Position numbers and translations under genes: made by a program. Of a DNA stretch of 64,000 nucleotides, positions 24,386 to 48,155 are shown piece after piece (the stretch's first letter is position 1; every line of letters starts with the position of its first letter). The DNA comes from Nymphaea colorata. Lineage: Eukaryota > Streptophyta > Magnoliopsida > Nymphaeales > Nymphaeaceae. Under the pieces are notes generated by a model. The model was not told where the DNA came from. It was given only the letters and a program-made list of their open reading frames with translations, and did not search any database. The stretch spans positions 12,662,716 to 12,726,715 of the forward strand of contig NC_045142.1 of NCBI RefSeq assembly GCF_008831285.2, given 5' to 3'.

Positions 24386-25450
24386 TTACGTAATTATTTG
24401 TGAGGTATATGCCAATAAGCAAGATCCTGATGTACTTGAGACATGAGAAAAGACCAGGAGGAAAGTACATTTGTAGCTATTAGTATTAAGCAAATTTTCA
24501 GGAAAAAATATCCAATCAGTACTGAGAGCTCTTCTCATGCAATTTGCATCTCCATGATTGAGTATAAGATATATGAAGTATTCTGCTGAAGTGGAATAAT
24601 ATATCCAGCCAATCAACTAAAGATATTATGGAGGAAAACAACTCAGATACGTAAGCCACTGGGCTGTGTCATGTGGTTGGTTCCAGTTTCAGCATTATAC
24701 AAACTATAGTATGACTGCCCTTCTACAAGAACTTGGAAAAGAAATTTTGGGAGAAAAGAGTTGTTCATATTCTTTGCGGGGTCCTACTACCAGAACTTTC
24801 ATAGTTACAAGAGTCTAGAAGACTAAGTTTATAGAAAAGAATGTCCATCTAAAATATCCAATGCTGCTCCCGTCTTCCTCTCCCATCTCCAGCATCTGAA
24901 ACCTTCCACGTTTTAAATGGTGTATTGGAACTCTCTGTTGTAACCTTCTCATCATGACTGGCTTTGTTGGAAACAACGTCCTTGAATTTGTTCCAGATGA
25001 CTTCCTTCACCTGTATTCTCTTTGGTTGCAATGGCGTCAAGGCAGCTCCTAAACCTCTATTCACAGATTGCGTTCTGTCCATGTTGTTTACACTGCACTG
25101 CCTGATGGCAAATGGATAGATGGGAAGCCAGGTGAAGAGCTTTTAGTTTGAGAAATAGTAGAAGTAGTATGTAAAGCAGGGATGTGTGCAATTTACAGGC
25201 AGTGTAGAGAGAGAAAATTCTTTGCTTCTATACCAAGTCAGTGAAGGGATCCATGTTGAGCCCCTCAAGATGCTATTCAACATAACCTCTATTTTATGGC
25301 AATGAAGACTCTTTTCTTCAAAGTTTGACAATAAGGGGCTATAGGACATGTGACTGGACAATGATTGCTTGACATGGGTCAATTATGAACTTATGATTTG
25401 CTTTGGTATTACCAATTTCCACTTGGTTAAAACAGCTTATAAATACACCA
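24386..25450 (-). repeat. Repeat block X, copy 2 (minus)
   Basis: Reverse complement of copy 1 (7328-8470), and collinear in the same orientation with 51,840-52,860. With copy 3 at 35,100-35,845 it forms a head-to-head pair around the palindrome centred near 26,390. Confidence 0.85.
24849..25082 (-). CDS. Unrecognised small ORF X, copy 2
   Basis: A 77-residue frame starting MDRTQSVNRGLGAALTPLQP, continuing with KRIQVKEVIWNKFKDVVSNK and ending GRREQHWIF. It is longer than copy 1 at both ends. There is no known domain. Retention of one frame across four copies is the only argument that it codes. Confidence 0.4.
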   Translation of the reverse strand: MDRTQSVNRGLGAALTPLQPKRIQVKEVIWNKFKDVVSNKASHDEKVTTESSNTPFKTWKVSDAGDGRGRREQHWIF

Positions 25451-26221
25451 TGTACCATATAGCTCCTTTGTTTTTATCTAGTTGGTGTTTATCATTATTG
25501 CTTAAGTTGGTTAGATAGTTGATAGTAAGAGATCTTCTGTTGTTTTTTTTTCTTTGGTGTTTATAATCATTCATTAAATTGTTTGGTGTAATGCTATTTC
25601 TAACACCATAGTCATATGTAGACTAGCTTCCAACTTTCGATTTGCCTGCTTTTGCTCACATAGATCGCCTCATCCATCCTTTTGCATTTGCTGGTAGGTT
25701 CCAAGAGTTTTTAATCACCCAAAGCAGATTAAAAGATGCTGTTCAGTAGTGCTGATCGAACATGAAAATACTCTATTACAGTCTGGGACTCATTTGGAAG
25801 AGGAAAAGAAAATAGTAACTAAGAGAATTCACAAATTGATCTGCTAATGATTATGGAAATGAAGTGAATACTAAGTTCATCAGGCTTAATCAGTATAAAA
25901 AATTATGGTTATTAATGAGTTCAGGGTCGTAAAACAGTAAGAAAAGAAAACCAGAGCAATGGTATCTGATTCAGATGCAACAACTGTATCATTTTTCCAT
26001 CCATTCAATGTCAGGAAAACAGAAAGCCTCTCCTCATCCAAAAGCAAATTTGCTAAGAACAAGGCAAAGAGAGGGAAACAAAACAATGGAGAGATTCCTA
26101 CGTTACAGAAGGAGAGGGAAAGATATGTTTCACCGGAGAGATCAATCTCCCTTCTTCCACTCCACCTCTAAGCTCTAGGCTTACATGATATCTGCTTTCT
26201 TCAAACTGTTTTCCTATCTCA
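25451..26221. repeat. Left arm of large palindrome, unit 1
   Basis: Collinear with 52,860-53,905 of unit 2. Its reverse complement recurs in two pieces: 25,640-25,990 at 34,640-35,080, and 26,000-26,200 at 32,540-32,715. It lies between X copy 2 and the hairpin centre. The short frames (25,959-26,178) show no known motif. Confidence 0.7.
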
Positions 26222-26265
26222 TTTTCTGCAACTTATCAGACTGAACGCACAGAGGAGAATACTCC

Positions 26266-26299
<34 letters not shown>

Positions 26300-26556
26300 G
26301 GGACTTTGAAGATGGAGGAGGAGATCTCGGCACACACCTTTTATAGTGCTGTGAGTATGTGCGGTTCTCTTTCAAAAAAGAAAAAGGTCGAAGGAGCGGG
26401 CACATAAGGAAACCGCACATACTCACAACCCCATAAAAGGCGCATACCGAGATCTCCTCCTCTGCCTTCAAAGTCCCCGCCTCTCTCTTTCACACTCTTT
26501 CTCTCTCTCTTTGGGAGTACCCTCCTCTACTCGTTCAGTCTGATAAGTTGCAGAAA
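26222..26556. repeat. Hairpin at palindrome centre, unit 1
   Basis: The left arm runs from TTCTGCAACTTATCAGACTG (26,223) through a GA microsatellite (26,270-26,295) to GTATGTGCGGTT. The right arm is its reverse complement, ending CAGTCTGATAAGTTGCAGAA. Arms are about 140 bp with a loop of about 40 bp near 26,365-26,405. TATA-like stretches (TTTTATAG, CATAAAAGG) sit symmetrically in both arms, as expected if this was a divergent promoter region of two head-to-head genes (inference). Confidence 0.85.
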
Positions 26557-26628
26557 ACGAAGAACGGAGATATCTCTGAGTCCGACCACCCTCCCTTGTG
26601 TAAGAAATCAAAATGATGAAATAATTAA

Positions 26629-27406: not shown

Positions 27407-27501
27407 TAAAGGGACAAAAATTTTTAAAGTGGTTCAGCCAATAGGCCTACGTCCACTAGTCTATCATTTCTTGCTTGCCTTCTTTTGGTGGAGAGGCTCA
27501 T

Positions 27502-30500
27502 TTATATAGAGGAGTTACATAAGGGGTCTCTAGTTCCCAAGAGACATGACTTTTCATCTTTCAACATACATGACTTTTCATCCCTCAAGAGACATGACTT
27601 TTCATCTCTCAAGAGACATGTCTTTTCATTCCCTAAGGGACATGACTTTTCATCTTCCAACAGACATGACTTTTCATCTCTCAAGAGATATGACTTTTCA
27701 TCTCCCAAGTAATACACATTGAGAGCCTTCTTGGTGTTTCTGTTAACATCCCCCCGCAAGCTCAATGCTCCAACAATGAGATTGAGCTTGTTAATTATTT
27801 GATAATAGTGCTGCTTACTAAGTGGCTTAGTTAAAATATCAGCAACCTGATCTTTGGAAGAGATGTACTGAATTTTCAAATCTCCTTTAGCCAATTTTTC
27901 TCGAACAAAATGAAGGTCAATCTCTATGTGTTTGCTGCGACTATGATACACAGGATGAGCTGCAAGATAGGCTGCGCTGATGTTGTCGCACCATAATATG
28001 GGAGGTTGTGATTGATCAACACAAAGTTCTTTTAATAAAAATTGTAACCACATGATTTCAGCAGTAGTGTTGGCAATGGATCGATACTCAGCCTCAGTGC
28101 TAGAACGAGAGACAACTGACTGCTTTTTAGCACTCCATGAAACTAGATTGGATCCAATAAACACTGCATATCCACCTGTAGAGCGTCTATCATCAAGACA
28201 TCCTGCCCAATCTGCATCACTGTAAGCATTAACATTTAAAACTGAACTAGGTCTAATAACAAGGCCATAATCAATAGTGTGCTTCAAATATCTTAGGATT
28301 CTCTTTACGGCATCCCAATGGGCATCAGTAGGATGATGCATGTATTGACAAACTTTGTTGACAGCATAAGATATGTCTGGACGAGTCACAGTAGAGTATT
28401 GAAGAGCGCCAACAATGCTGCGATAAAGAGTTGGATCATAAAAATTTGATCCAGTTTGAGCAGATAAAGCAGGGGAGCATGCCATGGGAGTTGAAACTCC
28501 CTTAGCTCCAAGCATATTTGTTCTTTTGAGAAGTTCGAATATGTACTTCCTTTGAGATAATATTAGCTTATTGTCAATTCTTTTTGCTTCTATGCCCAAA
28601 AAGAAATGAAGCTCACCCAGATCTTTAATGGCGAACTCACTTTTGAATTGACAAATAATTTTATGAATATATTCTGGTGAGCTTCCTGTTATGATCATGT
28701 CATCCACATATACCAAAACATATAGAAGTATTTCTCTTTTTCTCAAAATAAAAAGAGATGAATCTGTTTGAGCCCCTTTAAAACCAAGATTTTGGAGGAA
28801 TAGACTAAGACGGGCAAACCATGCCCTAGGAGCCTGTTTTAAACCATATAAAGCACGTTCAAGCTTGCATACATGATTTGGGAAAGAATGATTTTGAAAT
28901 CCGGGTGGTTGAGCCATATAAACTTCTTCTGAAATAGATCCATATAGGAATGCATTTTGAATATCCAGCTGATGTATTTTCCATTTGTGACTAATAGAAA
29001 TAGTCAATACTGTTCGAATTGTAGTAGGCTTCACAACAGGACTGAAGGTTTCAGTATAGTCAATTCCTTCTTTTTGACTATATCCCTTGGCGACGAGTCT
29101 AGCCTTGTATCTTTCCAATGATCCATCTGCCTTTCGCTTGATTTTGAACACCCATTTACATCCTACAATGTGTTTGGCTTCTTTCTTTGGAACAAGTTTC
29201 CAAGTATTGTTTCGAATAAGAGCATCATATTCTTCTTGCATGGCCTTCCTCCAATTTTCATCTTCATATGCTTCCTTAAAACTTGAGGGTTCTTTGTCTT
29301 CAAGAAGAGTGGAGACAAGAGCTCTTGGAAGAGAGTGTTTGCTAGAAAAATATGTATGGAACTCATTGTATTTAGAATTAGGTTTGAAGATTCCCACTTG
29401 AGATCTAGTAGTCATAGGATGGACTCGTTCTTGATTTGGTTCATTTTCATTGGATTGGGTAGGCTCCTCATTTTCAAGAGTTTCAGGTTGAGATTCACTA
29501 TTTGTTTCAGACTGAAGTAAGGGTTCCTCTGAAGTTGTGGAGGTACTAGATGATGGTATTGTAGGGTTTGAGAACTGATATTCATGAGGGGAGGTTAAAA
29601 TTATGGCTTGGTTTTGAGTTTCTAGATCTTGAGTTCTAGTTTCTTGAGTATCAATAAAAGGAAATTTTTTCTCATTAAATTGGACATGTCTCGAAATATA
29701 GATTTTACGGGTTCGTACACCCAAACAATAATATCCTTTATGTTGAGGAGCATAACCCAAGAAAACACATCTTTCAGAACGGTAATCTAATTTATTTTTC
29801 TGATAAGCTCTTAAACAAGGAAAGCATTCACATCCAAAGATTTTGAGGAAGCCATAGTCAGGTTTCTCTTTGAACAATTTTTCCAAAGGAGAAGCAAAAT
29901 CAAGAATCTTGGTTGGCATTCGGTTAATCAAATATACAGCAGTACAAAAAGCATATGACCAAAAGTTCTTAGGAATATTACCTTCTGCCATTAGAGATAA
30001 ACCTGTTTCAACAATATGTTTATGTCTCCTTTCAGCTGCTCCATTTTGTTCAGGGGTATGAGGACATGATATTCTATGTCCAATCCCATTATCGACAAGA
30101 TATGATTGAAGCCCTTGAAATTCTCCTCCCCAATCTGAGTGAAAATATTTTATCTTGTGCCCAGTGAGATTTTCAGAAAGTGCCTTGAAAGCTTTAAAAA
30201 CATGACTGACATCTGATTTTTTTTTCATCAAATAAATCCAAGTATATCTTGAAAACGCATCCATAAAAATCACATAGTACTTAAAACCATTCACACTCTC
30301 CACTGGGGCTGGACCCCATACATCAGAATAAATGAGTTCAAGCGGGCGTTTCACCTTACTTGAAATAGCATTAAATGGAAGTTTATGACTCTTAGCCTTT
30401 TGACAAGCTTCACACAAATAATTTAAACAATCATCATAATAAGACAAATCATACTTGTTCAAAACCTTCTTAACAATGGAAAATGAAGGGTGACCAAGTC

Positions 30501-31044
30501 TTTTGTGCCACTGCCCAATAGTATGTCTTTCTCCAAGTTGTGCTTCCTTTTTTTTGCTACTAAGGTCTATCTTATATAGCCCATCACTGCTCGTTCCTTG
30601 ATGAAAAATTTTTCCCGTTTCCTGCTGCTTAACATAGCACATATTAGGATGAAACTCAAAATAGACTCCATTATCCTTAGAAAAACGTTGTACAGATAAC
30701 AAGTTTCTTGTTATTTTGGGCACATGAAGGAGATCATTTAAAACTAAATTTTGAGATGTCTTTGAAGAACCAATATGAAAAATTCCCAAACCTGATCCAT
30801 CTCCAATTTTTACTGCATCTCCACCTTTGTATTTGGCATGAATGGACAAGTTATTGATATCATTGGTGATGTGATGAGTCGCACCGGAGTCAGGATACCA
30901 ATTGTCATCTCCAATGTCTTGATTCAGAGTGCTAAAAGAAACTGCATGATATGCTTGAGGAGGCGTTGTCTCTTTTTCTTTAAGCAAGTTAGTATATGAC
31001 CAACAAAACTTTGCAAATGACCAACTTTTCCACATATTTGGCAC
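27502..31044 (-). CDS. Copia pol polyprotein, intact frame
   Basis: An 1180-residue frame. Protease: WYPDSGATHHIT (about residue 50). GAG-pre-integrase: WHKRLGHPSF with CEAC (about 180-215). Integrase core: D in YSDVWGP, D in FHSDWGGEF and E in EQNGAAERRHK, followed by the CVFLGYAPQHKGY block. Reverse transcriptase: KWVFKIKRKADGSLERYKAR, QLDIQNAFLYG and the YVDDM catalytic box. RNase H: YSDADWAGC, STEAEY, WCDN and DILTKPLSK. All catalytic residues expected for copia are present. The frame begins inside the zinc knuckle, in a different frame from gag. It does not stop before the LTR but runs about 245 bp into it, adding a tail of tandem DEKSCLLR-like octapeptides that ends GTRDPLCNSSI. It acts in the virus-like particle to copy and integrate the element. 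Confidence 0.95.
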   Translation of the reverse strand: MPNMWKSWSFAKFCWSYTNLLKEKETTPPQAYHAVSFSTLNQDIGDDNWYPDSGATHHITNDINNLSIHAKYKGGDAVKIGDGSGLGIFHIGSSKTSQNLVLNDLLHVPKITRNLLSVQRFSKDNGVYFEFHPNMCYVKQQETGKIFHQGTSSDGLYKIDLSSKKKEAQLGERHTIGQWHKRLGHPSFSIVKKVLNKYDLSYYDDCLNYLCEACQKAKSHKLPFNAISSKVKRPLELIYSDVWGPAPVESVNGFKYYVIFMDAFSRYTWIYLMKKKSDVSHVFKAFKALSENLTGHKIKYFHSDWGGEFQGLQSYLVDNGIGHRISCPHTPEQNGAAERRHKHIVETGLSLMAEGNIPKNFWSYAFCTAVYLINRMPTKILDFASPLEKLFKEKPDYGFLKIFGCECFPCLRAYQKNKLDYRSERCVFLGYAPQHKGYYCLGVRTRKIYISRHVQFNEKKFPFIDTQETRTQDLETQNQAIILTSPHEYQFSNPTIPSSSTSTTSEEPLLQSETNSESQPETLENEEPTQSNENEPNQERVHPMTTRSQVGIFKPNSKYNEFHTYFSSKHSLPRALVSTLLEDKEPSSFKEAYEDENWRKAMQEEYDALIRNNTWKLVPKKEAKHIVGCKWVFKIKRKADGSLERYKARLVAKGYSQKEGIDYTETFSPVVKPTTIRTVLTISISHKWKIHQLDIQNAFLYGSISEEVYMAQPPGFQNHSFPNHVCKLERALYGLKQAPRAWFARLSLFLQNLGFKGAQTDSSLFILRKREILLYVLVYVDDMIITGSSPEYIHKIICQFKSEFAIKDLGELHFFLGIEAKRIDNKLILSQRKYIFELLKRTNMLGAKGVSTPMACSPALSAQTGSNFYDPTLYRSIVGALQYSTVTRPDISYAVNKVCQYMHHPTDAHWDAVKRILRYLKHTIDYGLVIRPSSVLNVNAYSDADWAGCLDDRRSTGGYAVFIGSNLVSWSAKKQSVVSRSSTEAEYRSIANTTAEIMWLQFLLKELCVDQSQPPILWCDNISAAYLAAHPVYHSRSKHIEIDLHFVREKLAKGDLKIQYISSKDQVADILTKPLSKQHYYQIINKLNLIVGALSLRGDVNRNTKKALNVYYLGDEKSYLLRDEKSCLLEDEKSCPLGNEKTCLLRDEKSCLLRDEKSCMLKDEKSCLLGTRDPLCNSSI
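27542..27709. repeat. 24-bp tandem array in LTR (left copy)
   Basis: Seven units of 24 bp with consensus AGACATGACTTTTCATCTCTC plus AAG, differing by a few substitutions. On the minus strand the array lies in U3, upstream of the TATA box, the position where Tnt1-type elements carry transcriptional enhancer repeats (family knowledge). In translation it is an 8-residue repeat of the DEKSCLLR type at the end of pol. Confidence 0.95.
27749..27756 (-). promoter_or_regulatory. Polypurine tract of the young copia element
   Basis: On the minus strand the sequence CGGGGGGA lies immediately before the TGTTAACAG start of the 3' LTR. This is the standard place for the plus-strand primer of reverse transcription. 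Confidence 0.85.
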
Positions 31045-31892
31045 ACAAAACGATCACCTTTGTATTGATCACTTTTCCGGACTCCTCCTCTAGATTGATA
31101 GTTGTTTCTACCACGACCTCTGTAGTTGGTTTGGTTGTTGTAAACTTGTTTTGAGGCAATATTCGCAGCCGGCATAATAGATTCAAAAGTTTGAGAATCA
31201 TCTTCTTTTAAGTTGGCTTCTTGTATGAGTAGAAGCCCATGAAGTTCGTTCAAAGAGACAGGGTCCTTTCGAGTTTCCATACTGACTTTAAAAGCAAGAT
31301 ATTCACTTGGCAATCCTCTAAGAATTTGAAGAACAAGATCATCTTCATCAACAGGTTTGGATGCAATGGCTAATTGATGAGCAATAGATTTTGCTTTGTT
31401 TATATAAACATCCATAGAACTAGACCCCTTTTTCAAATCTTGAAACTGTGATTTTAACTGCATTATTCGAGCCCTAGATTGAGTGGCATATGACTGCCTA
31501 AGAGCGCTCCAAACCTCTAGAGAGGTTTTTAAACCAATAATTTGGGTATGTATTGCTTCAGATAGAGAGGACTTAATCCAACTCAAAAGTAGTTGATCAT
31601 TTCTCAACCATTCAATATATTCTGAACTAATTTCAGTTGTTCCACTTCTAAACATTGATGGAGCAGGTTTGCTTCCATCAATATATCCCATAAGACCAAA
31701 TGAGATCAAAATTGAAGTGAATTGAGATTCCCAAATAAGATAATTTTCAGCATTTAACTTGATGGTGAGGAAATGCTGTAAATTGCTTGGGCACTGAAGA
31801 GGAGAAGCAAGAAAATTCATACCCATATCAGAGTTGACTCCTGTATTTGATGATGCTTCTTGATTTGCCATGAGAATGAAACGCGACAACAA
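30924..31892 (-). CDS. Copia gag
   Basis: A 322-residue frame; the likely true start is the internal Met at 31,871 (MANQEASSNTG), as upstream residues are atypical. It contains the copia gag (UBN2/retrotran_gag) region: KLNAENYLIWESQFTSILIS, LLSWIKSSLSEAI, VWSALRQSYATQSRARIMQL, KSIAHQLAIASKPVDEDDLV and ILRGLPSEYLAFK. An RGRGRNNYQSRGG basic stretch and the first part of a zinc knuckle (CQICGKVGH) follow. After that the frame departs from the expected knuckle; the last Cys is found in the pol frame. Gag and pol overlap by about 120 bp and are 1 nt apart in frame. Confidence 0.93.
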   Translation of the reverse strand: MLSRFILMANQEASSNTGVNSDMGMNFLASPLQCPSNLQHFLTIKLNAENYLIWESQFTSILISFGLMGYIDGSKPAPSMFRSGTTEISSEYIEWLRNDQLLLSWIKSSLSEAIHTQIIGLKTSLEVWSALRQSYATQSRARIMQLKSQFQDLKKGSSSMDVYINKAKSIAHQLAIASKPVDEDDLVLQILRGLPSEYLAFKVSMETRKDPVSLNELHGLLLIQEANLKEDDSQTFESIMPAANIASKQVYNNQTNYRGRGRNNYQSRGGVRKSDQYKGDRFVCQICGKVGHLQSFVGHILTCLKKKRQRLLKHIMQFLLAL

Positions 31893-31933
31893 AAGATGTA
31901 ATCCTTAGGATCTAGCAGCAACACTAACAAGGA

Positions 31934-31951
31934 CCAGTGGCTCTGATACCA
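31934..31951 (-). promoter_or_regulatory. Primer-binding site, initiator tRNA-Met 3' end
   Basis: On the minus strand TGGTATCAGAGCCACTGG begins immediately after the 5' LTR. TGGTATCAGAGC is the complement of the plant initiator tRNA-Met 3' end, the usual primer for plant copia elements. Confidence 0.95.
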
Positions 31952-32320
31952 TGTAAGAAATCAAAATGAAGAAATAATTAAAGGGACAAAAATTTTTAAA
32001 GTGGTTCAGCCAATAGGCCTACGTCCACTAGTCTATCATTTCTTGCTTGCCTTCTTTTGGTGGAGAGACTCATTTATATAGAGGAGTTACATAAGGGGTC
32101 TCTAGTTCCCAAGAGACATGACTTTTCATCTTTCAACATACATGACTTTTCATCCCTCAAGAGACATGACTTTTCATCTCTCAAGAGACATGTCTTTTCA
32201 TTCCCTAAGGGACATGACTTTTCATCTTCCAACAGACATGACTTTTCATCTCTCAAGAGATATGACTTTTCATCTCCCAAGTAATACACATTGAGAGCCT
32301 TCTTGGTGTTTCTGTTAACA
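31952..32320 (-). repeat. 5' LTR of the young copia element
   Basis: 369 bp, uninterrupted. It contains the 24-bp x 7 array (32,114-32,281). A TATA box (minus-strand TATATAAAT, about 32,072-32,081) lies downstream of the array in transcription direction, so this LTR looks promoter-competent. Confidence 0.95.
32072..32081 (-). promoter_or_regulatory. LTR TATA box
   Basis: Minus-strand CTATATAAATG lies about 32 bp past the end of the 24-bp repeat array and about 120 bp before the LTR end. This is a likely transcription start region for the element. Confidence 0.65.
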
Positions 32321-32715
32321 CCTTGGTCCTTTTCTTAAACAGAAGCTGGAAACGAAGAAGTTGGATAGAGCTATTGTCCCCCTCTCATTTTATGTTTTCA
32401 TCTCTGTTGGTGTTTTGGAGTGCTGGGAGGTTGTTGACTGGCGCTGCTCGAAACCCGGAGTTTTAGATTATTTCTGAGATCAGAGAAGAGGCTCTTAGTT
32501 TTACGACGAGAAAACACTTTGAAGAAAAACGGATATCATGAAAGCCTCTAGCTTAGAGGTGGAGTGGTAGAAGGGAGATTGATCTTTCTGGGAAACATAT
32601 CTTTCCCTCTGTGTCTGTAACGTAGGAATCTCTCCATTGTTTTGTTTCTCGGTCTTTGCCTTGTTCTTAGCAAATTTGCTTTAGGATGAGGAGAGGCTTT
32701 CTATTTTCCCTGACA
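32321..32715. repeat. Right arm of palindrome, unit 1 (first piece)
   Basis: Reverse complement of about 53,440-53,880, and of the matching left-arm DNA at 26,000-26,200. Together with 26,400-26,598 it is the right arm of the palindrome, now split by the young copia element. Confidence 0.8.
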
Positions 32716-32719
32716 TTGA

Positions 32720-33060
32720 TCAAACAATCCAAAACTCATTGTATTGGATTCCTAGACCCAAAAAATGTTTATTTAATATTGAGGTACTGCCTGGGTGAGA
32801 GGCTGAGATACTCTTCCTTTTCGACTGTCTTTGGTGTTGTAAGCTACTTTGAGACTTAATTGAAATTATGAATACACCTTTCAAATTCACCGTAAGGTAG
32901 CATGACAGCGACCATGGCAACTCGAAATCAAAACTCTTTTCTCGTGTGCTGTCTTGCCACCCAATTGTGCTACGCCTCTTGGGGCTAATGTAATATTCAG
33001 AACTTAGCCAGGTTCTATATTTTCTTTCGATGTTAGCTCAAGTTTGGATCAAAACGCGAA
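32720..33060 (+). repeat. Dispersed repeat R3, copy 1
   Basis: Shared with 63,620-63,960 (+) and the reverse complement of 36,555-36,770. Anchors are ATTGGATTCCxAGACCC, TTTCAAATTCACCG and CTTAGCCAGGTTCTATATTTTC. No coding motif is seen. It sits at the end of the palindrome arm, here and after the inverted LINE segment, so it may mark a recurrent breakpoint. Confidence 0.7.
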
Positions 33061-33639
33061 GGAAAATATTTTGTCTCCTAAACTGCAAATGGGTTTTTCA
33101 GTGAGAAAAAGGCATGGATGGGTATGTCAAACACATGTAAGTGGGGATACTGGTTAGATATCATGTAATATACTAAATTTGGACTCCTCAACAAAGCTTG
33201 GTACCAAGTTTGAATCTGATTCATAACCAGAATTGTTCTGGGTACAAAATGTACCAAGTCAAAATTAATTGGATTTATAATACTTCCGGTTGGGTCATTG
33301 AAATCAGGTTGTTTGATGGCTGAAATAATTTTATAAACAACCATACTCGAAAACAGAGTTTCACAAAAAAAATAAAAATAAATAAAAGTTCAAATAGCAC
33401 AGGAGCTGGAGATGGCTGATCAGGTGCTCGAAGGGGAAGGTCGGTAAACGGGTAATCTTCTCAGCCAAATCTTAGCTGAACTGAATGGGGGAACAAAGAA
33501 GAGAAGGCGATGAAGCAGCAGCAGCAGCATCAACTATTGCTGAAGATGAAGATGCTGGGTGAAGGATGCCGGTGGCTGCCGTTGGACAAGGCTAAGGTAT
33601 ACCTGAAGTGGAACACCTTAGTCCCCTCAACTTCTCTTC
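33061..33639. other. No gene recognised
   Basis: Contains a short CAG-type triplet run (33,510-33,530) and frames such as LLKMKMLGEGCRWLPL (about 33,540) without a family match. Confidence 0.4.
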
Positions 33640-34180
33640 GATCGATTGAAGAAAGGCGGTGCCTTTTGCCCTTCAATTAGTGCTCATTTTCCTGCATTTG
33701 GTAAAATAATTGGCTCTTTACCTCCTCCACAAGAGAAGAATGTGTGGAGAAGACTACCAGATGCTTCGAAGGAGAAGTCCATCAGAAGAGAAGGCTGGAT
33801 GATGGAACGCGCAGTAGGAGAAGGGTCGGTGCAGGAGGGCTAGTGGAGCTGCATTTCCTCCCACCTGCTAGCCATGGCAGCAGCCATCCCATCCTTTCTC
33901 ATGGCCTGGCTCCTCGGCAGTGGCGTCCGACCTCAATACCAGCGATACAACCTATCAGTTTCGGTGTCGCACATGCCAAGGGGCACATCCGTTCGCTTCG
34001 CCGTCCGAAACTCCTTCAGAACCTGATCTTGATCCTAGTCTCAGTAGGCATGTTTTTGTCTTAGTTGTCTATTTTTGAATTTCCTTTTTTCTAGTGCTTT
34101 GTACTCCTCTGTAAACTCCTAACTACTTGTTAGGAGTCTTGTTGCTAGTTACACAAAATTAAGAGCTGATTTTCAGATGT
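33640..34180 (+). repeat. Dispersed repeat R4, plus-oriented copy
   Basis: Reverse-complementary to 6155-6870, as described there. It ends with the hairpin CTCCTAACTACTTGTTAGGAG (34,112-34,132). Open frames inside show no known domain. Confidence 0.65.
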
Positions 34181-34230
34181 GATCTCTTTTTTAGGTTCAA
34201 CTTTTTGTTGGACTTATGTTAATGTTATTT

Positions 34231-34262
34231 TCCTCTCTCTCTCTCTCTCTCTCTCTTTCTCT
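34231..34262. repeat. TC microsatellite
   Basis: A CT/TC run of about 30 bp, next to two short local direct repeats (AGAGGAGCAGAGAG at 34,292 and AAGAGCAGAGAG at 34,381). Confidence 0.85.
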
Positions 34263-34639
34263 ATGGATGTCTGAATTAAAAACTAAAAGGAGAAGAGGAG
34301 CAGAGAGCTCCAGACATGAGGAAAATAGAGCAACGTGATAATGAAGAATGGATTGTGAAAACAAAAAACTAAAGGGCGAAGAAGAGCAGAGAGTTCGGGA
34401 CAAGTGGAAAACAGATTGAAAAATATGCAAATAAAATGGCAGATCATACGATATGTCTTCTTTTTTATTTCCTTCATCTAGGAACTTCTCACAGAGGGCG
34501 GAAGGAAAAGCTGACCACAATGGTTTGCTTTAGAACAGGGACTTTTAAAGCTAATTCTATATGACATTGATAAAGGGGTCGTAAGAAGGTTGCAGTAACA
34601 TTAGTAGATGTGGGCACTTCAGATCAACACAATATGTGC

Positions 34640-35845
34640 TACTATTTTTACATCAAATGGATGGAAAAATGATACAGTTGATGCATTCGAATCAGATACC
34701 ATTGCTCTGGCTTTCTTTTCTTACTGTTTTATGATCCTGAACTCATTAATAACCACTATTTTTTATACTGATTAAGTCTGACGAACTTAGTATTCACTTC
34801 ATTTCCATAATCATTAGCAGATCAATTTTTGAATTCTCTTAGTTACTGTTTTCTTTTCCTCTGCCAAAAGAGTCTCAGACTGTAATAGAGTATTTTCATG
34901 TTCGATCAGCACAGCTGAACAACAACTTTTAAGCTGCTTTGGGTGATTAAAAACTTTTGGAACCACCAGCAAATGGAAAAGGATGGAGGAGTTGATCTAT
35001 GTGAGCAAAAGCAAGCAAATCGAAAGTTGGGAAACAAATTTTAGAAGAGGAAGCTAGTCTGCATATGACTATAGTGTCAGATATAGCATTACGCCAACCA
35101 ACTTAATGAATGATTATAAACGCCAAGGAGAAAAAACAAAGGAAGATCTTTTTCTGTCAACTATCTAACTAACAAACTACGAATGATATTAAACACCAAG
35201 TAGAAAAACAAAGGAAGATCTCTTACTATCAACTATCTCACCAACTTAAGGAATAATGATAAACACCAGCTAGAAAAAGGCAGAGGAGCTATCTGGTACA
35301 TGGTGTATTTATAAGCTGTTTTAGCCAAGTGGAAATTGGTAATACCGAAGCAAATCATAAGTTCATAACTGACCCATATCAAGCAATCATTGACCCGGCA
35401 CATGTCCTATAGACCCTTATTGTCAAACTTTGAAGAAAAGAGTCTTCATTGCCATAAAATAGAGACTACGTTGAATAGCATCTTCAAGGGCTCAACATGG
35501 ATCCCTTCACTGACTTGGCATACAAGCAAAGAATTTCCTCTCTCTACATTGCCTGTAAATTACACACATCATTGCTTTACTTACTACTACCACTGTTTCT
35601 CAAACTAAAATCTCTTCACCTGGCCTGCCATCTATCCATTTGCCATCAGGCAGTGCAACATATACAACATGGACTGAACGCAGTCTGCGAACAGAGGTTT
35701 AGGAGCTGCCCTAAAGCCAATGCCACCAAAGATAATACAGGTGAAGGAAGCAATCCTTGAACAAATTCAAGGAAGCTGTTTCCAACAAAGCCAGTCATGA
35801 TGAGAAGGTTACAACACAGAGTTCCAATTCACCATTTAAAACGTG
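34640..35845 (+). repeat. Palindrome right arm (second piece) with block X, copy 3
   Basis: 34,640-35,080 is the reverse complement of about 25,640-25,990. 35,100-35,845 is X in plus orientation, truncated after CACCATTTAAAACGTG where the other copies continue. The X frame here is broken (35,497-35,760 is in another frame), so this is the most decayed copy. Confidence 0.8.
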
Positions 35846-36500
35846 TAAAATTAAAAACCAGTAAAATCGACCAGAATCACTCCCCTAAGAGTTAAAAGCC
35901 ATGCTAAGTAAATGAAGCAAGCAAAGTGCAATAGTGGAAGAAAGTGACAGAGAATAGTGGTTATACCGTGGATGGCAAGACAAAAAAATTAATCTACTTC
36001 ACCCACCAATAAAATACGATTCATGAACCAACTTGTAATTCAAAACTAACAAATATACAAAACCTTCAACTTATAGAGTATGAAAGCCATTCTACCGGAG
36101 AAAAATATCATCAATCTATACATAATTTAACAATTTAACCACCAAGTCCAAACAAACAAAAGAAAAAAAAAGATCACTATTCATTGAAATCACAACAACA
36201 TATGAAAGGGTTCCAAAACACAAAGAGATGTAATTTCATGGTCAACATCTCAAAAAATGTCCTACGAGTACGTAAAAGTAAACAAAAATCTATGTTAAAT
36301 CAAACAAAGATGTATGGGTTCTCTAGTGTCACCCGACACCTGTGTTTCATATTCAAATCTGGGTCTAAGCCACCGGGTTGATGCGTGTGAAACTGGTTCA
36401 TATTCCCTACTTCCTACTAATTTGGGGAGCCGAACTATGGGAATTCATATGGCTTAGGTTCGAAACACATATTCAATAAATCCACCAAAATCAAATCTAT
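35846..36500. other. No gene recognised
   Basis: AT-rich single-copy-looking DNA following the truncation of X copy 3. No motif is seen. Confidence 0.45.
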
Positions 36501-36870: not shown

Positions 36871-36945
36871 TCGAGAAATGATACACCTGGCTTGCGTTCA
36901 GTTGACGCCTCTCACGGTCTCACCACTTCGTGGGAGCCGAGAGAG

Positions 36946-37920
<975 letters not shown>

Positions 37921-37922
37921 AC

Positions 37923-37952
37923 GGGTTATGGGCCCACCACGCTTCCGCTGCG
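37923..37952 (+). promoter_or_regulatory. Primer-binding site complementary to internal initiator tRNA-Met
   Basis: Two bases after the LTR lies GGGTTATGGGCCCACCAC, followed by GCTTCCGCTGCG. This is the complement of about 30 consecutive bases of plant initiator tRNA-Met, from the D-arm through the anticodon (CAU) loop. The standard plant site TGGTATCAGAGC is absent here. Priming from a cleaved tRNA half is known for Drosophila copia. The tRNA sequence is from memory. Confidence 0.85.
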
Positions 37953-39840
37953 TGTTTTCCCTTTGCATTCTATCTTCCCGCAAATGGAATAGGGCAGAAA
38001 CGTGGAAGAAGAGGGCACCGACGTGCCTGTTCCTTCCTTTGTTACAAAATGGCAATGGAAGCGTTGGTTTCTGTTGTAGTAGCATAGAAAGGAACAGGGA
38101 GAGGTGACGGACGTGCGTCTTGCCGGTGCCCACCCACTGTTTTGGGGCAGAATCCGTCGCCCTCCGTTGTGATGGAAGCCTCTGTGCTTTTGTTGCAGCG
38201 AGAGACAGAAAAGGGCAGACATGAGGAAAGGGAGCGACGACCTTCATCGCGTGGGCGATGGAAGCCGTCGGCTTCCGTTTCAGCCGCCCGAAGAAAGGGG
38301 AAAACAGAAAAAGGGAAAGGGACGACAGGGAGGAGCGGCGGTTTGGAGGGGTACCGGCCGGGAAAGGGCGACCACCGGCGACAACAATGTCGCCGGACGG
38401 GCTCATCAGGTCCGCTGGTGTCCACCCAAAGCCGCCGGTGTCTTCCCATTGCCGCTACTGCATCCACCTGACGAAAACAGAGGGGGTGGGAGAAAGGGCT
38501 TCGCCCGATTTCGCCACCCACCTTCAAAACAATACCGCTGGGGTCTTACCCGTCGCCGGACGGTGCCATGAGGCCCTACCGGTGCCCGCCCATGGCCCGC
38601 CGGAGGCGATTCCGCCGTTCGGCGTAGGGTAGGCGAGCGGCGGTTTCGTTTTCCCTGAAACCGCCCGCTAGGTCGAATGGGAGACGGTCGGGCGGAAGGT
38701 GGGGAGGCGGGTCGGACCCGGGTCGGGTCAATCTTGACCCGACCCGGATCCATAAACGTTTTAAAAAAAAAATCTCGTTGTGCCCGCTCTTCCGCCCGCT
38801 TTGATTTCAATTTTTTGGATCGGGTCGGGTTTGGTTGGACCTGATCCATATCCATTCAATCTGATTTTATAAACAGAACCGATTCGGTCCGTTTCAGAAC
38901 CGATTCGATCCGTTTCAAGACCGGTTCAGACATTTTGGGACTGATTCGGATTTTTTCTGGACCGATTCAGTTGATTTTCAGACCGGCTCATTCAGTTTCA
39001 GAACCGATTTGGGTCTTTTCAAAACGATTCAGAGTTGTTTGACACCGGTTCTTTCCCTTTTCTGACCGGTTCACCTAGTTTTCCACTGGTTCGGTCCATT
39101 TAGGACTGATACGGGACCGGTTCTAAGCTAGAGGAAGCTGGTATATGTGGTTGTATGCCCATTTAGGGTGTTTAATGGATTGGTTCGATCATTTTAGATC
39201 GATACGGTACCAATTCATTATGTTTTATGGAGCTTTAATAAACAATTTAGATAGTATTAAGTTGATTATGCAGAAATGATTCATGTGATTCGTGTATTTC
39301 ATTTTATATGTGTTATTATAACATATTCTTGTATCATGTTTTGTTTAGGATTATGCTAAAGTTAGTTTTATTGCATGATCATAAATTTTATACGATAACG
39401 CTAATGTAAAGAGCCTATGATTAGTTAAATCATGTCATACCTCACCAAAGTGACTACACATGATTTAAAGGCACATTAGTGTTTCATGTTGTATTTATTC
39501 TCATTTGAAGTAACATAATTACCCAAAGGTAGTGTGTTATGTTCAAGAGAATAAGTAGAGTAAAATAGGAAAATAGATCTTGATATAATTCTGTCATTTT
39601 ACACCCAAAGGTGTTATGCTTAACTATAGTTTGGATTTACATTTTCTAGTTTTACTAGATAAAGTTGAGACGGAATACATGTCCGTATTAGGTATATTAC
39701 CAAAGTAGTATCCTAATGACCCCGAGTATTTGTCTTGGAAATAGTAGACATAAAGAGCCTTTATTTGGTGTACTGTTCCATATGGTTTGTCTCATATAAT
39801 GCATGTCAACTTGTAGATGTCTTTTGTCGTCTGCAGTGCC
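37953..39840 (+). other. Long leader of the decayed copia element
   Basis: Nearly 1.9 kb between primer site and gag. 38,090-38,760 is strikingly GC-rich compared with the window, with overlapping open frames on both strands (38,042-38,632) that are low-complexity (Arg, Pro, Ser-rich) and match no domain I know. After it comes the degenerate ACCGATTCGG-type repeat and then AT-rich sequence. It may be an untranslated leader or captured host DNA. Confidence 0.6.
38870..39120. repeat. Degenerate ACCGATTCGGTCCGTTT repeat
   Basis: About ten imperfect units of 20-30 bp built on GAACCGATTCGGTCCGTTTC with CCGGTTC variants. Confidence 0.8.
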
Positions 39841-39851
39841 TGGATTTATTT

Positions 39852-40340
39852 ATTTTAATGGCTCAAATTCTATCCCTTTACTTGATGATTCAAATTATGC
39901 TGAATGGAAATAAAATGTTGTGTTTACATTGGGGTATATGGATCTAGATATGGCTTTGAGGCGACCTGAGCCACCATCTTTTACACCAGAAAGTACACAT
40001 AATGAAATAGTGTATTTTGACAAGTGGGAGCATTCTAACCGACTAAGCTTGTTGCTTTTGCCATCAAGGGTCGCTAAGAACATACGTGGTGCTATCCCAC
40101 CTTGTAGATCGGTGAGAGAGTTCTTGGATGCAGTTGAGGCTCAGTTTGTCAGTTCCCAGCATATGTTAGAAATGAGGAACATTGCTTCTCAATTGAATGA
40201 CATGAAGTTTACTATTTCTGAATCATTCTTGGTACTTTGACCTCTTTACCAGCTGAATACACTCCTTTTAAGATCAGTTACAACACACATAATACTGAAT
40301 CTGAATGGACATTCAAAGTGTGTTGAAGAGGAGGAAAGGA
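39852..40340 (+). pseudogene. Copia gag, decayed
   Basis: Frames encode FNGSNSIPLLDDSNYAEWK, a stop, then NVVFTLGYMDLDMALRRPEP, a KWEHSNRLSLLLLPSRVAKN segment and ISESFLVL before another stop. This is the N-terminal core of copia gag. No clean initiator frame is visible. Confidence 0.85.
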
Positions 40341-40346
40341 TGAAGG

Positions 40347-43300
40347 GTGAGAAGTTGCAAAGTGCACATGGTTTCTCACTCTAGGGCTGGTAAAGTTGGC
40401 ATAAAGAAACGTTTAATGAAAAGGAGTGCCAAGAAAAAGTCATCAAGTCAACCTGCTTCTCAAACTGCGCAGACTAACTTAGCTCCTATAAAGTGTTTCT
40501 TTTGCAAGAAAAAGGGGCATAAGAAGTCAGACTGCATCAAGTATAAGAATTGGTTAGAGAACAAAGGTAACATGTCATTTGTTTCACTTGAAAGTAATAT
40601 GTTACATGTTCCTATTAATAGCTGGTGGATTGACTCTGGTGCTACTGTGCATATTACCAATTCTTTACAGGACTTTCTGATCAAAAGGGAACCAACGCTA
40701 CATGAGAGGAGCATTTTCTCAAGAAACAAAATGCACTCACTTGTGAAGGCTGTAGGAGAATGCCAGATTAGGCTTGATACTGACTTTGTTTTGGATCTTC
40801 ATTATGTTTTCTTTGTTCCATCATATAGTAGAAACTTGATTTTTGTATCAAGACTGGACAAATTTGATTTCTGTTTAAAGTTTGAGAATTCAAAGATGTT
40901 CATTTATAAAGATCTTGTTGAAACTGGTTCTACTATTTTGTGTGATGGTTTATACAAGTTGAATGTGAAGATCCAATCTCCTGAATCGTTGGTTTCTAGT
41001 CATAATATAATTGGCAATAAGCGTAGTACCATAAAGGATGATTCATACATGCTATGGCACCGCCGTTTGGGTCATATATCTGAAAAGAGAATAAGGAGAC
41101 TCATAAATGAAGGGATCTTACGATCTCTTGATTTTACAGATAACGACATATGTGTAAATTGCATAAAGGCAAAGCAAACTAACATATATAAAGAAGGTGT
41201 CGAGGCAAAGGCAAAGCAAACTAACATATATGAAAAGTTAGGAATTGTTCACATAGATGTTTGTGGACCTTTTCCTCCTTGTTACACAGGCGAAAAGTAT
41301 TTTGTCACCTTTATAGATGACTATTCTCGGTATTTGTATCTCTACTTAATCTTTGAAAAATCTGATGTGTGTCAAGTTTTCAAGGACTATAAGAAAGAAG
41401 TAGAGAAACAAACCGATGGGGTTATCAAGATAGTCAGATCAGATAGAGGTGGTGAATATTATAGTAGGTTCACTGAGATGGGACAAAGGGATGAACTATT
41501 AGCACGATTTCTAAAGGAAGAAGGCATTGTGCCTCAATACAACATGCCAGGCAGTGCCTACTAAAATGGTGTGGCTGAAAGAAGAAATCGTACGCTTAAA
41601 GAAATGGTTTGAGCTATGTTAAATTACTCTACTCTCCCTCTAACATTGTGCGGTGAAGCTCTCAGGACAGCAGTGCATATCCAAAATAGGGTTTCTACTA
41701 AAGCTGTTCCTACAACTCCTTACGAGTTATGGATAGGTAGGAAACCTTCTCTTTCTTATATGCACATATGGGGATGTCCTGCTGAAGCTAAATTGTGTAA
41801 CCCATACATAAAAGCCTTTGATCCTAGAACAACCAGTGGTTTCTTTATTGGTTATCCAAAAAGATCGAAAGGTTATAGGTTTTATTGTCCATCTCATACA
41901 CCACATATTGTGGAAACAGATAAAGCTAAGTTCCTGGAAGATGGCTCATTTGGGTTAGATGCATTACAAAACATCACTTTTGAGGAAATACAGGATACTG
42001 AATGTAGACCTGATAAAGAGAATGTAAATGTGTATGATTATGATGTCTCTCATGATGACACGAATGCAAATCATACAGGCAATGCATCAAATCCAGATGA
42101 ATTACATATAGATCATACTGATGAACACGAACAGGATGTAGACATACAAATTGAAAATGATCAATTACCTGTTCATAGATCTGCAAGAGCCAGGAGATCT
42201 GCCATATCATCAAACTATGTGGTATACCTACAAGAGCCTAGTGATTTCATAGATGTTGATGATGATCCTTTCACATTCAATGAAGCCGTTGAAAGCAAAC
42301 AATACAGGTTCTGGATTAATGTCATGAAAGAAGAGCTTGACTCTATGGCTAAAAACCAGACATAGAGTCTTGTATCGTTGCCTAAAGGAGTAAAACCCGT
42401 AGGGTGTAAATGGGTCTATAAGACCAAGAGGGACTCTAAAGGCAATATAGAGAGATACAAAGCAAGATTAGTTGCTAAAGGATTTACACAAATGGAGGGC
42501 ATTGACTATAATGAGACATATTCACTTGTCTCTGCTAAAGAGTCAATGAGGATTGTCCTTGCACTTGTAGCTCATTTTGACTTAGAGCTACATCAGATGA
42601 ATGTGAAAACGGCTTTCTTGAATGGTGATTTGGATGAAGAGGTATATATGGATCAACCTCAAGGGTTTTCTGAGAGTGGTAAAGATCATTTGGTATGCAA
42701 ACTTAATAAAGCGATTTATGGACTTAAATAGGCCTCACGTCAATGGTACATTAAGTTTTCCGAAGTCATTACGACTTTTGGGTTTACAGAAAACATCATT
42801 GATCGATGTGTGTATCTTAAGATATGTGGGAGTAAGTTCATAATTTTGACTTTATATGTGGATGACATTTTGATTGCTTCAAATGATCTTCAATTGCTAA
42901 TAGAAACCAAACATTTTCTCGCATCTCATTTTGAGATGAAGGACATGGGTGAGGCTTCATTTGTTCTCGGCATTGAGATTCGTCGAGGCAGATCTAAATG
43001 TGTTTTAAGTCTCTCCCAATCAGCATACATCAATAAAGTTCTTAAGAGATATGGGATGGAGAATTGTTCTCCTATTTCGGCACCCATAGGTAAAGGGGAT
43101 AAATTGAGCATAAATGATTGTCCAAAGGACGAATTTGAAAAGGCACAAATGATCAACATTCCATATGCATCAGTGGTTGACAGCTTACAGTATGCGCAAA
43201 TTTGCAATAAGTCTGACATTTCCTTTGCTGTTGGGATGCTTGGTAGATTTCAATCTAATTCAGACATTTCACATTGGAAGGCCGTAAAGAGAGTCATGTG

Positions 43301-43827
43301 ATACTTGCAAGGGACAAAAGATTACATGTCGCAAGGTGGACCATTTAGAAGTGATTGACTATTCTGATGCCGATCTTGGAGGATGTACCGATAGTAGAAA
43401 GTTTACTACTGGTTTTGTTTTCCTTCTATCAGGAGGTGCCATCTTATAGGGGAGCAAAAAGTAGACTGTGACTGCTGCTCACACCATGAAAGCAAAATTC
43501 ATTGCATTATATGAGACTACATCGCAGGCAATTTGGATAAAGAACTTCATTTCACAGCTCAAGATAGTGGAATCTATTGAGAGTCCACTTAAGGTTCACA
43601 GTGATAATGAAGCTGCAGTGTCCTTTTCCAACAACAACAAAAGTACTACTTCTTGTAAGCATATGGAACTTAAGTATTTTGTTGTTAAGGAAAGGACAGA
43701 GAATCAACTAGTGTGTATTCAATACATTGGGACTACAGATATGGTTGCAGATCCTTTTACTAAAGTGCTAGCATCTGGTATGTCCTTTGAACATGTTAAG
43801 AGAATGAGTTTGTGTAGTTCAATGTAA
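40347..43827 (+). pseudogene. Copia pol polyprotein, decayed
   Basis: Zinc knuckle CFFCKKKGHKKSDC (CX2CX4HX4C, about 40,495). Protease SWWIDSGATVHIT (40,620). GAG-pre-integrase LWHRRLGHIS with CVNC (41,055-41,165). Integrase D in HIDVCGPF, D in VRSDRGGEY and E in NGVAERRNRTL, with a stop between SAY and NGV (41,562). RT: RYKARLVAKGFTQMEGIDYN, the YVDDI box (42,860) and a stop after AIYGLK (42,729). RNase H: YSDADLGGC, HSDNEAA and the MVADPFTKVL end. Internal stops appear at about 41,562, 41,609, 42,363, 42,729, 43,299, 43,447 and 43,462; most are explained by C-to-T or G-to-A changes. Compared with intact copia pols all domains are present and collinear. Confidence 0.93.
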
Positions 43828-44016
43828 ACACACTATTATGCAACATTTATGAATGTGATCACATACAGTTTGTTGATTCTCATTAAGTTTGTTGTCTATT
43901 TATTTTGTATTCTCATTTGTTTGTTGAGAAGTTTTGTAAGACAACAAGGTGGGACCTTGGAATGGATTTTAAGGCTAATCCATTCATTTTGTTTATCCTT
44001 GATATCGACTTGGACT

Positions 44017-44026
44017 AGTGGGAGAT
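44017..44026 (+). promoter_or_regulatory. Polypurine tract of the decayed copia element
   Basis: AGTGGGAGAT directly before the 3' LTR TGTTGGG, a common plant copia plus-strand primer sequence. Confidence 0.85.
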
Positions 44027-44421
44027 TGTTGGGATTTCTCCATCTAGATAGTCCTGCGTCGATACGGGTCCATATCCGTTTCGAACCCTAAGTATAAATA
44101 CTCGTGTCTTGTGATGGTGTGAGACACATCAAGTTTTTTCCGTCTGGGTAATCGGTCCCCTTAGCCATACGTGAATTGCCTGTCCCCATCACTGGGCTGC
44201 TATGGCTGAGGAGAGAAACCCATTGCCGCCGCCGCTAACTCCGCAGGGGAACGACTCTATGGGGACTGTAGCCGTTCTTCCCACAGCCGCCGACATTCAG
44301 TCGGCGGTCGCCTCTATAGGTTCTTCTTCCGCCCCTATGAAACACATGAATCATGAATGCTCATTTTCGATTTCTGCATTTTCGTTTGTGCGCTATCTAG
44401 ATTCCTAGCAAAGTTCCAACA
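44027..44421 (+). repeat. 3' LTR of the decayed copia element
   Basis: 395 bp; TATA box at 44,093-44,100. Here the LTR frame starting MAEERNPLPPPLTPQGNDSM stays open for 68 codons (44,202-44,408), because two small differences from the 5' LTR remove its stop. Confidence 0.95.
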
Positions 44422-45885
44422 CAACATCCTTGTATGTTTTTCTTCTTGTTCTCCTCGTCCTCCTCTTTTTATCGAAGAACATAGCATTGCGAATTTCTGT
44501 TTGCCTTGTCAGAACTACTTTTTATTTTCTGCTTTCTTTTGGGCCTTCCTTTTTTCACTCTGATATTTGATCGTTCACTTTCTAAATCTTCCTATTGTCA
44601 TATGTGTTTTCCAACTTCTCGATTTCTTGGTTGTTTTTGGATATGCATTCATACAGTATCATGTTAGCTGGTGTTTATTGATCTGAAACAGCTCAAATGC
44701 ATTCGATCGGTTGACCATGGACGATGGGAAATGTGAATTGAGACCTTAGTCTTAATTTTCCTTGATTCTCTTTGTTTTTTAAACATTTCCAATTTTCCCA
44801 TACTTTTGAGTTAAAATGAAAAGAAAGTCAATGGGACATGCCATGCAGCAATGGTCTTTCGACTCTTTTGTCTATAGTGTGCGTAGACATAAAAAGAATG
44901 GCAATTTCTGGAGTTCTCTGGCACTGGTAGGCATATAGCAGTTTACACGACAAGGGTAACATGAAGTGTGAATGAAGCAATTTGTTCTTCTTGTCCTTTT
45001 CCTGGAATGTCGCCATTGAAGCTCTTTGCGAGCTTTATTTAAGCTCCCTAATGTGTTTGTTGTCTTCATGTGATAAAATTCGATGGGCATCAGAAACTCG
45101 CTTCGTAGACGTGGTCCTGGCTTTGATGTACTGTTGTGAGTTATAAGATTAAGTTTAGATTCTAGAATATTGGAGAACCTTTTGTGTACCAAAACTTCTA
45201 ATATTCAGTTTATTTTATCCTTTTTTATTTAAGCAGGTAAATAATGTTGGGACAAATATAAGGAAGCCAATTGTGGAATATACAGTGGATGATTTTTCAT
45301 TTTTAATTTTCTCTTAGATTTTCTCGAAAAGAACAACTTTGCCGAGAAGTACCTAAGAAAAACCTTGCTGATAAAAAGTTAAAAACCCAAGAATGATGTT
45401 TGAGGCTATGATATGACTATAACAGTTTAGTGTATGTAGAGCAGTTTGGTTGATGATGCCTGCTAGATGTCCGTGTAATTTTTCTCTATTCAGAACTTTC
45501 TACCATGTAAATTTAGATTCTGTCTTTGTATTAAGTATCCTTCAACACCAAATGGACATACAGAGAATATTTACATTATGTTTTATTGGGCTGCTAAGCT
45601 TCTATTTGGGGCATTTCTTAGCAATATGCAAGTTTATTGTGTCAGGGATATGGAACAAATATTCAATATTCAGTTTTGTCCATCACGCTGGCTTTTTGAC
45701 ATGATACGTGGTTTGAAAGCTGACGATGCTACTCATGAACGATCAAACTTTTTTGCAGCCGTTTATCAAATTTACGGGGCTGGTTTTTCTAATCTGACTA
45801 CAGTTTTCCATTATGCTAATAGGTGCATTTTCTATTAAACTTTCTTGATATTCTAATAAAAGTTGATGAGCCAATGCTACTCACG
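44422..45885 (+). pseudogene. SDR pseudogene copy 2 (3' part) and intron remnants
   Basis: Continues from 37,523: the end of exon 2 (CAACATCCTT before GTATGT), intron 2, and exon 3 from 45,237 ([20 protein letters not shown] then SFL). A deletion joins it to sequence matching 11,112 onward. Exon 4, exon 5 and the catalytic YxxxK are gone. The remainder to 45,885 matches intron 4 of copy 1. Confidence 0.88.
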
Positions 45886-47949: not shown

Positions 47950-48155
47950 GTCAAATAATCCTGACACTTCACTAGAATAAACTAACCTGAAATTTTTAGT
48001 CCAAGTGAAAAGAAAAAATGAATCTTGCTCTTGGCACTTGTACTTTTCTTATCAAATAATCCTGAAACTTCACTAGAATAAACTAACCTGAAATTTTTAG
48101 TCCAAGTGAAAAGAAAAAATGAATCTTCCTCTTGGCACTTGTACTTTCCTTACCT
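47950..48155. repeat. Local tandem duplication of about 100 bp
   Basis: The stretch starting TCAAATAATCCTGA and ending CTTGTACTTTTCTTA occurs twice in a row (about 47,953-48,052 and 48,053-48,150). Unit 1 has one copy (16,435-16,537). The duplication sits exactly where unit 2 lacks the next 1.8 kb. Confidence 0.8.

Follow-up and report, generated by a model that had tools for sequence, protein, structure and literature searches.

Drosophila copia and Ty5 are described as primed by half tRNAs (PMC5371799), and in copia, 1731, Ty5 and Osser priming starts at nucleotide 40 (PMC1181622). In a survey of 80 green-plant species, Osser, Bryco and part of Gymco-II had sites for half tRNA-Met and Bianca had sites for half tRNA-Ile; half-tRNA sites occurred in ~2% of the elements surveyed (PMC6317226). 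Nymphaea and Amborella are not named in its main text. Sites in the anticodon loop are also described in fungal copia and Helenus elements (PMC10886601).

Here we describe a site from the water lily Nymphaea colorata that is very probably, judging from sequence comparison, the primer-binding site (PBS) of a multi-copy Ty1/copia family primed by the 5' half of the initiator tRNA-Met (iMet). The closest described systems are Drosophila copia, 1731, yeast Ty5 and Osser (ICTV genus Hemivirus), which are likewise primed by a half tRNA with its end in the anticodon region. Compared with them by host and primer site, the water-lily family lives in a plant host of another group and has, in addition, 16 nt of D-arm complement that have drifted and stop at G9. 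Bryco and Gymco-II (REXdb) likewise are land-plant Ty1/copia groups with a half tRNA-Met PBS (PMC6317226). They belong to mosses and gymnosperms, whereas Nymphaea is an angiosperm, so that the separation is one of host. Bianca (REXdb) is, like the new family, an angiosperm Ty1/copia group with a half-tRNA primer, but uses tRNA-Ile and has two ORFs ~172 bp apart (PMC6317226), while the PBS in the water-lily element matches iMet exactly. Finally, in retroviruses the PBS is set by a stop at a modified base such as m1A58 (PMC13191261). The match in the water lily likewise ends at a position that is methylated in eukaryotic tRNAs; here, judging from sequence, the primer would be a half tRNA and the end lies at G9.

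Searches of open-licence papers brought up no earlier flowering-plant family with a half tRNA-iMet primer. We read the family as a case of a known mechanism in a host group outside the published survey's list, with an unusual primer relic.

The element and its site beside the 5' LTR

The window, i.e., the whole stretch of DNA that was analysed, is 64,000 nt long and covers positions 12,662,716-12,726,715 of contig C5; genome-wide searches covered 407.8 Mb in 783 contigs. The element of interest (Table 1) has the marks of Ty1/copia: LTR ends TG...CA, a 5-bp target duplication and integrase 5' of the reverse transcriptase, with a polyprotein order of gag-pre-integrase, integrase and reverse transcriptase. 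The two LTRs differ by 12 mismatches in 394 aligned columns (K2P 0.031), and the pol region of this copy is interrupted by stop codons. In a second copy, L012, the counterpart of the gag remnant matches Retrotran_gag_2 (Pfam), and the target duplication is again 5 bp long (TGCTC). A scan of viral contigs for relatives of one reverse-transcriptase piece found none.

Table 1. Features of the Ty1/copia element in the window (positions counted from the first letter of the window)
Feature	Position	Strand	Basis or remark
Ty1/copia element, whole	37524-44421	+	LTRs and domain order
Target-site duplication CAACA, 5' side	37519..37523	+	identical 5 nt at 44422-44426
5' LTR, TGTTGG...CCAACA, 397 nt	37524..37920	+	LTR pair comparison
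2-nt spacer, AC in window copy	37921..37922	+	AT in remaining 38 of 39 family copies
PBS core, 15 nt, complement of iMet nt 26-40 (anticodon arm)	37923..37937	+
D-arm complement, iMet nt 11-25, uninterrupted in window copy	37938..37952	+
Leader without long element ORF	37953..39850 (3' limit approximate)	+	differs among copies
gag remnant	39914..40240	+	itself without Pfam match
gag-pre-integrase, Pol beta-barrel and integrase-core piece	40344..41564	+	domain match
SH3-like piece (SH3_retrovirus)	41613..42365	+	domain match
Reverse transcriptase (RVT_2), two pieces, stop between	42366..43301	+	domain match
Purine-rich tract AGTGGGAGAT ahead of 3' LTR	44017..44026	+	by eye
3' LTR, 395 nt	44027..44421	+	LTR pair comparison
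Target-site duplication CAACA, 3' side	44422..44426	+	identical to 37519..37523

The sequence around the element, at 36900-37522 and from 44427 onward, reads as an exon belonging to a gene for a short-chain dehydrogenase (adh_short, tropinone-reductase-like by eye) into which the element is inserted. A splice-donor-like GTATGT and a downstream stretch coding for VNNVGTN lie 3' of the 3' LTR.

The 30-mer GGGTTATGGGCCCACCACGCTTCCGCTGCG at 37923-37952 (+) begins 2 nt 3' of the 5' LTR, after the spacer AC. It is the exact complement of nucleotides 11-40 of the host iMet, just as the first-pass annotation had it: a 30-base complement to the internal part of the initiator tRNA-Met, two bases past the 5' LTR. 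The window contains no other match to it with three or fewer mismatches. No match appeared in 100 shuffles, and the chance expectation for a 30-nt match is ~1.6e-13. We take Sprinzl numbers to be larger by one than linear numbers from nucleotide 17 on, which makes nucleotides 26-40 of the core Sprinzl positions 27-41.

Genome-wide the 30-mer had 11 exact matches. Nine of them fell inside ARAGORN calls of tRNA-Met(CAT), so that the match to the host tRNA holds over all 30 bases; the other two were the window copy and one further element. The nine tRNA-Met loci are identical to one another over nucleotides 2-40. One of them (L005) is a copy beside an LTR-like end, leaving eight as gene-like. In the window itself ARAGORN called no tRNA genes; nothing informative came from an Rfam search of the window, a 19-mer scan of viral contigs or an 18-mer scan of genome contigs.

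The window also contains a neighbouring copia on the minus strand (27407-32305), with two 300-nt repeats (27407-27706 and 31979-32278) that are 100% identical. Its PBS, at 31938-31951, matches 14 nt of the tRNA 3' end, and the contrast drawn earlier between this ordinary 3'-end site and the internal one holds. Tandem repeats of 24 bp occupy 32084-32305 and seem, by eye, also to be coding sequence in the last part of its long ORF. Nine inverted-repeat pairs (24904-26560 and 32526-35848; up to 552 nt, 84-94% complementary) were observed as well, seven of which flank the neighbouring copia with one arm on each side. Elsewhere in the window, at 47951-48152, there are two tandem 101-bp repeats, 97% identical.

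Conservation of the core and drift of the D-arm complement

Family members were searched for with the LTR and 80 nt beyond it, PBS included, a query that carries a slight bias. From 198 candidates, 40 matches (88-100% identical) were scored, and all 40 were read; removal of the window's own 3' LTR left 39 5' ends. The anticodon-arm site followed the spacer in all 39, so that, as in a hemivirus-type PBS, the complement next to the 5' LTR is that of the iMet anticodon arm rather than of the tRNA 3' end. The standard 3'-end site TGGTATCAGAGC, a possibility that the first-pass annotation had raised for other family members, occurred at the PBS position in none of the 39. The spacer was AT in 38 copies and AC only in the window copy.

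The core GGGTTATGGGCCCAC was exact in 30 of the 39 copies, had one change in eight and a 1-nt deletion in one. The longer match fared differently. The initial view of the 30 bases as a conserved long primer site has to be given up, since conservation is limited to the 15-nt core. The 16 nt beyond it have drifted, and just two copies, that of the window and L015 (the same as L007), have the 30-mer without interruption. By eye, a 2-nt insertion follows the core in 35 copies and is absent from L013 (the window copy), L015, L017 and L020.

Genome-wide, the 15-mer core had 85 matches, all of which were retrieved, compared to 0 for the reversed control. Since L083 and L084 have identical 110 nt, 84 sites were distinct by sequence: 65 in the family, two at other LTR-like ends (L087 and L106), 10 of tRNA type and seven further iMet complements. 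The 65-copy set, chosen by an exact core and partly overlapping the 39-copy set, had between core and D-arm complement a 2-nt insertion in 57 copies, a 3-nt insertion in five and none in three. One of the five, L092, fits poorly, its tail being largely lost. The base immediately 3' of the core was A in 36, T in 23, C in four and G in two of the 65 copies; as a sign of renewal this variability is suggestive only, given LTR sites with a major-allele frequency of 0.52-0.63.

The two other LTR-like ends are each followed by this 15-nt half-iMet core. In L087 (G000:C13:17388725-17391739) there is no insertion and the match also stops at G9; L106 (C10:6846165-6846679) has no D-arm tail.

The pairwise difference per column was 0.05 in the core, 0.22 in the tail and 0.14-0.16 in U5 just upstream (37892-37915). 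For the 28 closest of the 741 pairs, the values for core and tail were 0.05 and 0.20. The best LTR windows (0.02-0.07) are kept as well as the core, and core conservation by itself therefore does not show selection. Most 16-nt LTR windows ranged from 0.02 to 0.16, below the tail, while two indel-prone LTR stretches (0.25-0.35) are as variable as the tail or more so. The leader beyond ~37996 differed by more than 0.4 per column over all pairs.

Among the observations that argue for a half-tRNA primer are the presence of the core 2 nt past the LTR in every one of the 39 copies, the genome-wide excess of the 15-mer, and the contrast between core and tail. The known half-tRNA elements, moreover, start at this very nucleotide, 40 (PMC1181622). 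The suggestion that this plant family uses a cleaved 5' tRNA half stands in this form, with an anticodon-arm site throughout the family, an exact host iMet and a presumed cleavage.

We weighed two other origins of the site. A tRNA gene fragment or a chance likeness beside the LTR might be thought of because iMet genes exist in the genome; however, the match is antisense and at the same spot, with 2-nt spacing, in 39 of 39 copies, and together with the chance expectation given above the family survey refutes this idea, to which we assign practically no weight. Self-priming or the use of another primer, with an inherited tRNA likeness no longer in use, would have a parallel in TAR-lineage elements, which are predicted to self-prime (PMC6317226). 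The core, however, is kept while both of its neighbours, U5 and the tail, vary more, and we regard a disused site as very improbable.

The tail remains recognisable in most copies. Compared with the tRNA without gaps, its 16 nt had a mean of 12.5 matches, with at least 12 in 28 of 39 copies; in LTR control windows the mean was 6.4 and the maximum 11. The remaining 11 copies had 7-11 matches, and a 1-nt indel accounts for ten of these lower values. In gapped comparison every one of the 39 reached 11-16 matches (mean 13.8); here the control separates less sharply, with a mean of 10.3 and a maximum of 15, and 25 of the 39 scored above the best of 3,900 LTR control windows, while 14 did not.

Such persistence in most copies could mean that the D-arm complement is a selected pairing, in which the D-arm half of the primer binds the RNA as well and so promotes annealing, without any copying of tRNA; Ty1 and Ty3 have bipartite sites of this type. 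Bipartite PBSs are known (PMC5371799). On the other hand, the tail varies some four times as much per column as the core, also among the closest pairs, and the 2-nt insertion breaks the D-arm duplex in 57 of the 65 copies. We consider selected pairing rather unlikely, and lean somewhat more, though tentatively and short of an even chance, toward the D-arm complement being a copy of the primer that is either old or renewed from time to time.

The scatter of tail types across the element tree had been considered as proof of fresh copying, and was dropped. Tail class AC needed 13 changes on the element tree, compared to 12.9 in shuffles, and the tail retention index was 0.05 on the LTR-only tree and 0.18 on the leader-only tree (shuffled, 0.12). 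Control LTR halves were about equally unlinked to each other (0.16 and 0.20, with shuffled means of 0.14 and 0.12), which makes renewal indistinguishable from recombination; leader halves did track each other (0.47). Recombination or a weak signal may account for the mixing as well as renewal does.

The end of the match and tRNA copies beside other LTR-like ends

L015 matches the tRNA over 31 nt, and the match breaks off opposite G9. The window copy has a difference opposite G10, a T instead of C within a CpG. Opposite G9, the base that follows the tail was G in 31 and A in eight of the 39 copies, and never the tRNA-like C. In the 65-copy set it was G in 53, A in 10 and T in one, with the tRNA-like C in one copy (L101). 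The match thus ends at G9 in 39 of 39 and in 64 of 65 copies; since the copies share descent, this common end counts as a single datum.

We take plant iMet to carry m1G9 and m2G10. In eukaryotic tRNAs m1G is described at positions 9 and 37 (PMC6874348), and retroviral plus-strand strong-stop DNA is reported to terminate at tRNA modifications (PMC13191261). The end at G9 fits a stop of the reverse transcriptase while the primer is copied. The core, for its part, ends just short of position 26, which is m2,2G in the majority of eukaryotic tRNAs that have a G26:A44 pair (PMC7704012).

Besides the family, the genome contains longer iMet complements. Six of the seven further complements, as well as the tRNA-type loci L005 and L108, start at the CCA end (TGG...), while L081 starts elsewhere. 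L112 (also L005; G000:C6:24881941), for example, carries the complement of the entire tRNA, 75 nt, and deviates from it at a single position, opposite A58. In L108 (C10:18134268-18134782) the complement is 74 nt long and, relative to the tRNA gene variant of L002, has two differences, opposite A58 and G26. ARAGORN calls both L112 and L108 tRNA genes. L113 (also L103; C9:5420659) and an additional locus, L114 (C11:14598772), are also changed opposite A58, and the tRNA copy of L114 stops at A37. L111 (the same as L078) is unchanged there, as are L115 (the same as L083) and L116 (C12), two near-duplicates that were counted once. Among the six closest of the nine long complements starting at the CCA end, four were therefore changed opposite A58 and none opposite A59 or A60. 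The three more diverged complements lie outside this count: neither L055 nor L089 has a change at A58, and L097 is changed at A58 and at many other sites.

The sequences upstream of L112, L113, L115 and L108 are 83-86% alike and end exactly at the tRNA complement; that of L114 is 80% alike over ~100 nt. We read this upstream sequence as a probable LTR, but found no second LTR within 3 kb of L112. With this common upstream sequence, the three C changes opposite A58 may be one inherited event. The change in L108 is a G and is separate from them.

The tRNA copy in L112 continues into sequence homologous to L115 at a point ~1.3 kb further on (77-78%) and then, by eye, into reverse-transcriptase-like sequence, while that in L115 continues into protease-like sequence (by eye). 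Both loci look like internally deleted copies with the tRNA copy as the junction, with joins of tRNA to pol-like sequence as in an aberrant plus-strand jump. Judging by sequence, copying of a tRNA primer into LTR elements does seem to happen in this genome, though in a 3'-end family.

These long copies with changes at A58, together with the common end at G9, are what favours copying in the half-tRNA family. They make plausible, rather than prove, the earlier suggestion that the tRNA itself was copied into the element. Counting against copying, the PBS of Ty1 and Ty3 is reported to be inherited without it (PMC7472051).

A possible course of priming and what it would mean

Under the half-tRNA reading, iMet would be cut in the 3' strand of the anticodon stem, leaving linear nucleotide 40 (C41 in Sprinzl numbering) with the 3' OH. 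Nucleotides 26-40 of the half-tRNA would anneal to the 15-nt core, and synthesis of the minus strand would proceed across the 2-nt spacer into U5. Plus-strand DNA might then copy the attached half-tRNA and halt before G9, where m1G9 would block it. In this way 31 nt of tRNA complement would have entered the family, the 15-nt core being the portion still kept.

It is conceivable, and put forward with still more reserve than the copying step itself, that in an early-diverging flowering plant a copia-type element renews its PBS by copying a modified half-tRNA, in contrast to the strict inheritance reported for Ty1, that the stop at m1G9 sets the 31 nt, and that LTR elements of this genome keep footprints of tRNA modification, seen as changes opposite A58 and G26 and as matches that end at A37 or at G9.

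With a multi-copy family of this kind in the water lily, flowering plants would join the tRNA-Met list, which in the survey comprises algal, moss and some gymnosperm elements. The tail ending at G9 and the tRNA copies changed at A58 make primer copying by copia-type elements testable with a genome sequence and one tRNA modification map. If copying is true, integrated DNA would preserve a record of how the primer tRNA was modified.
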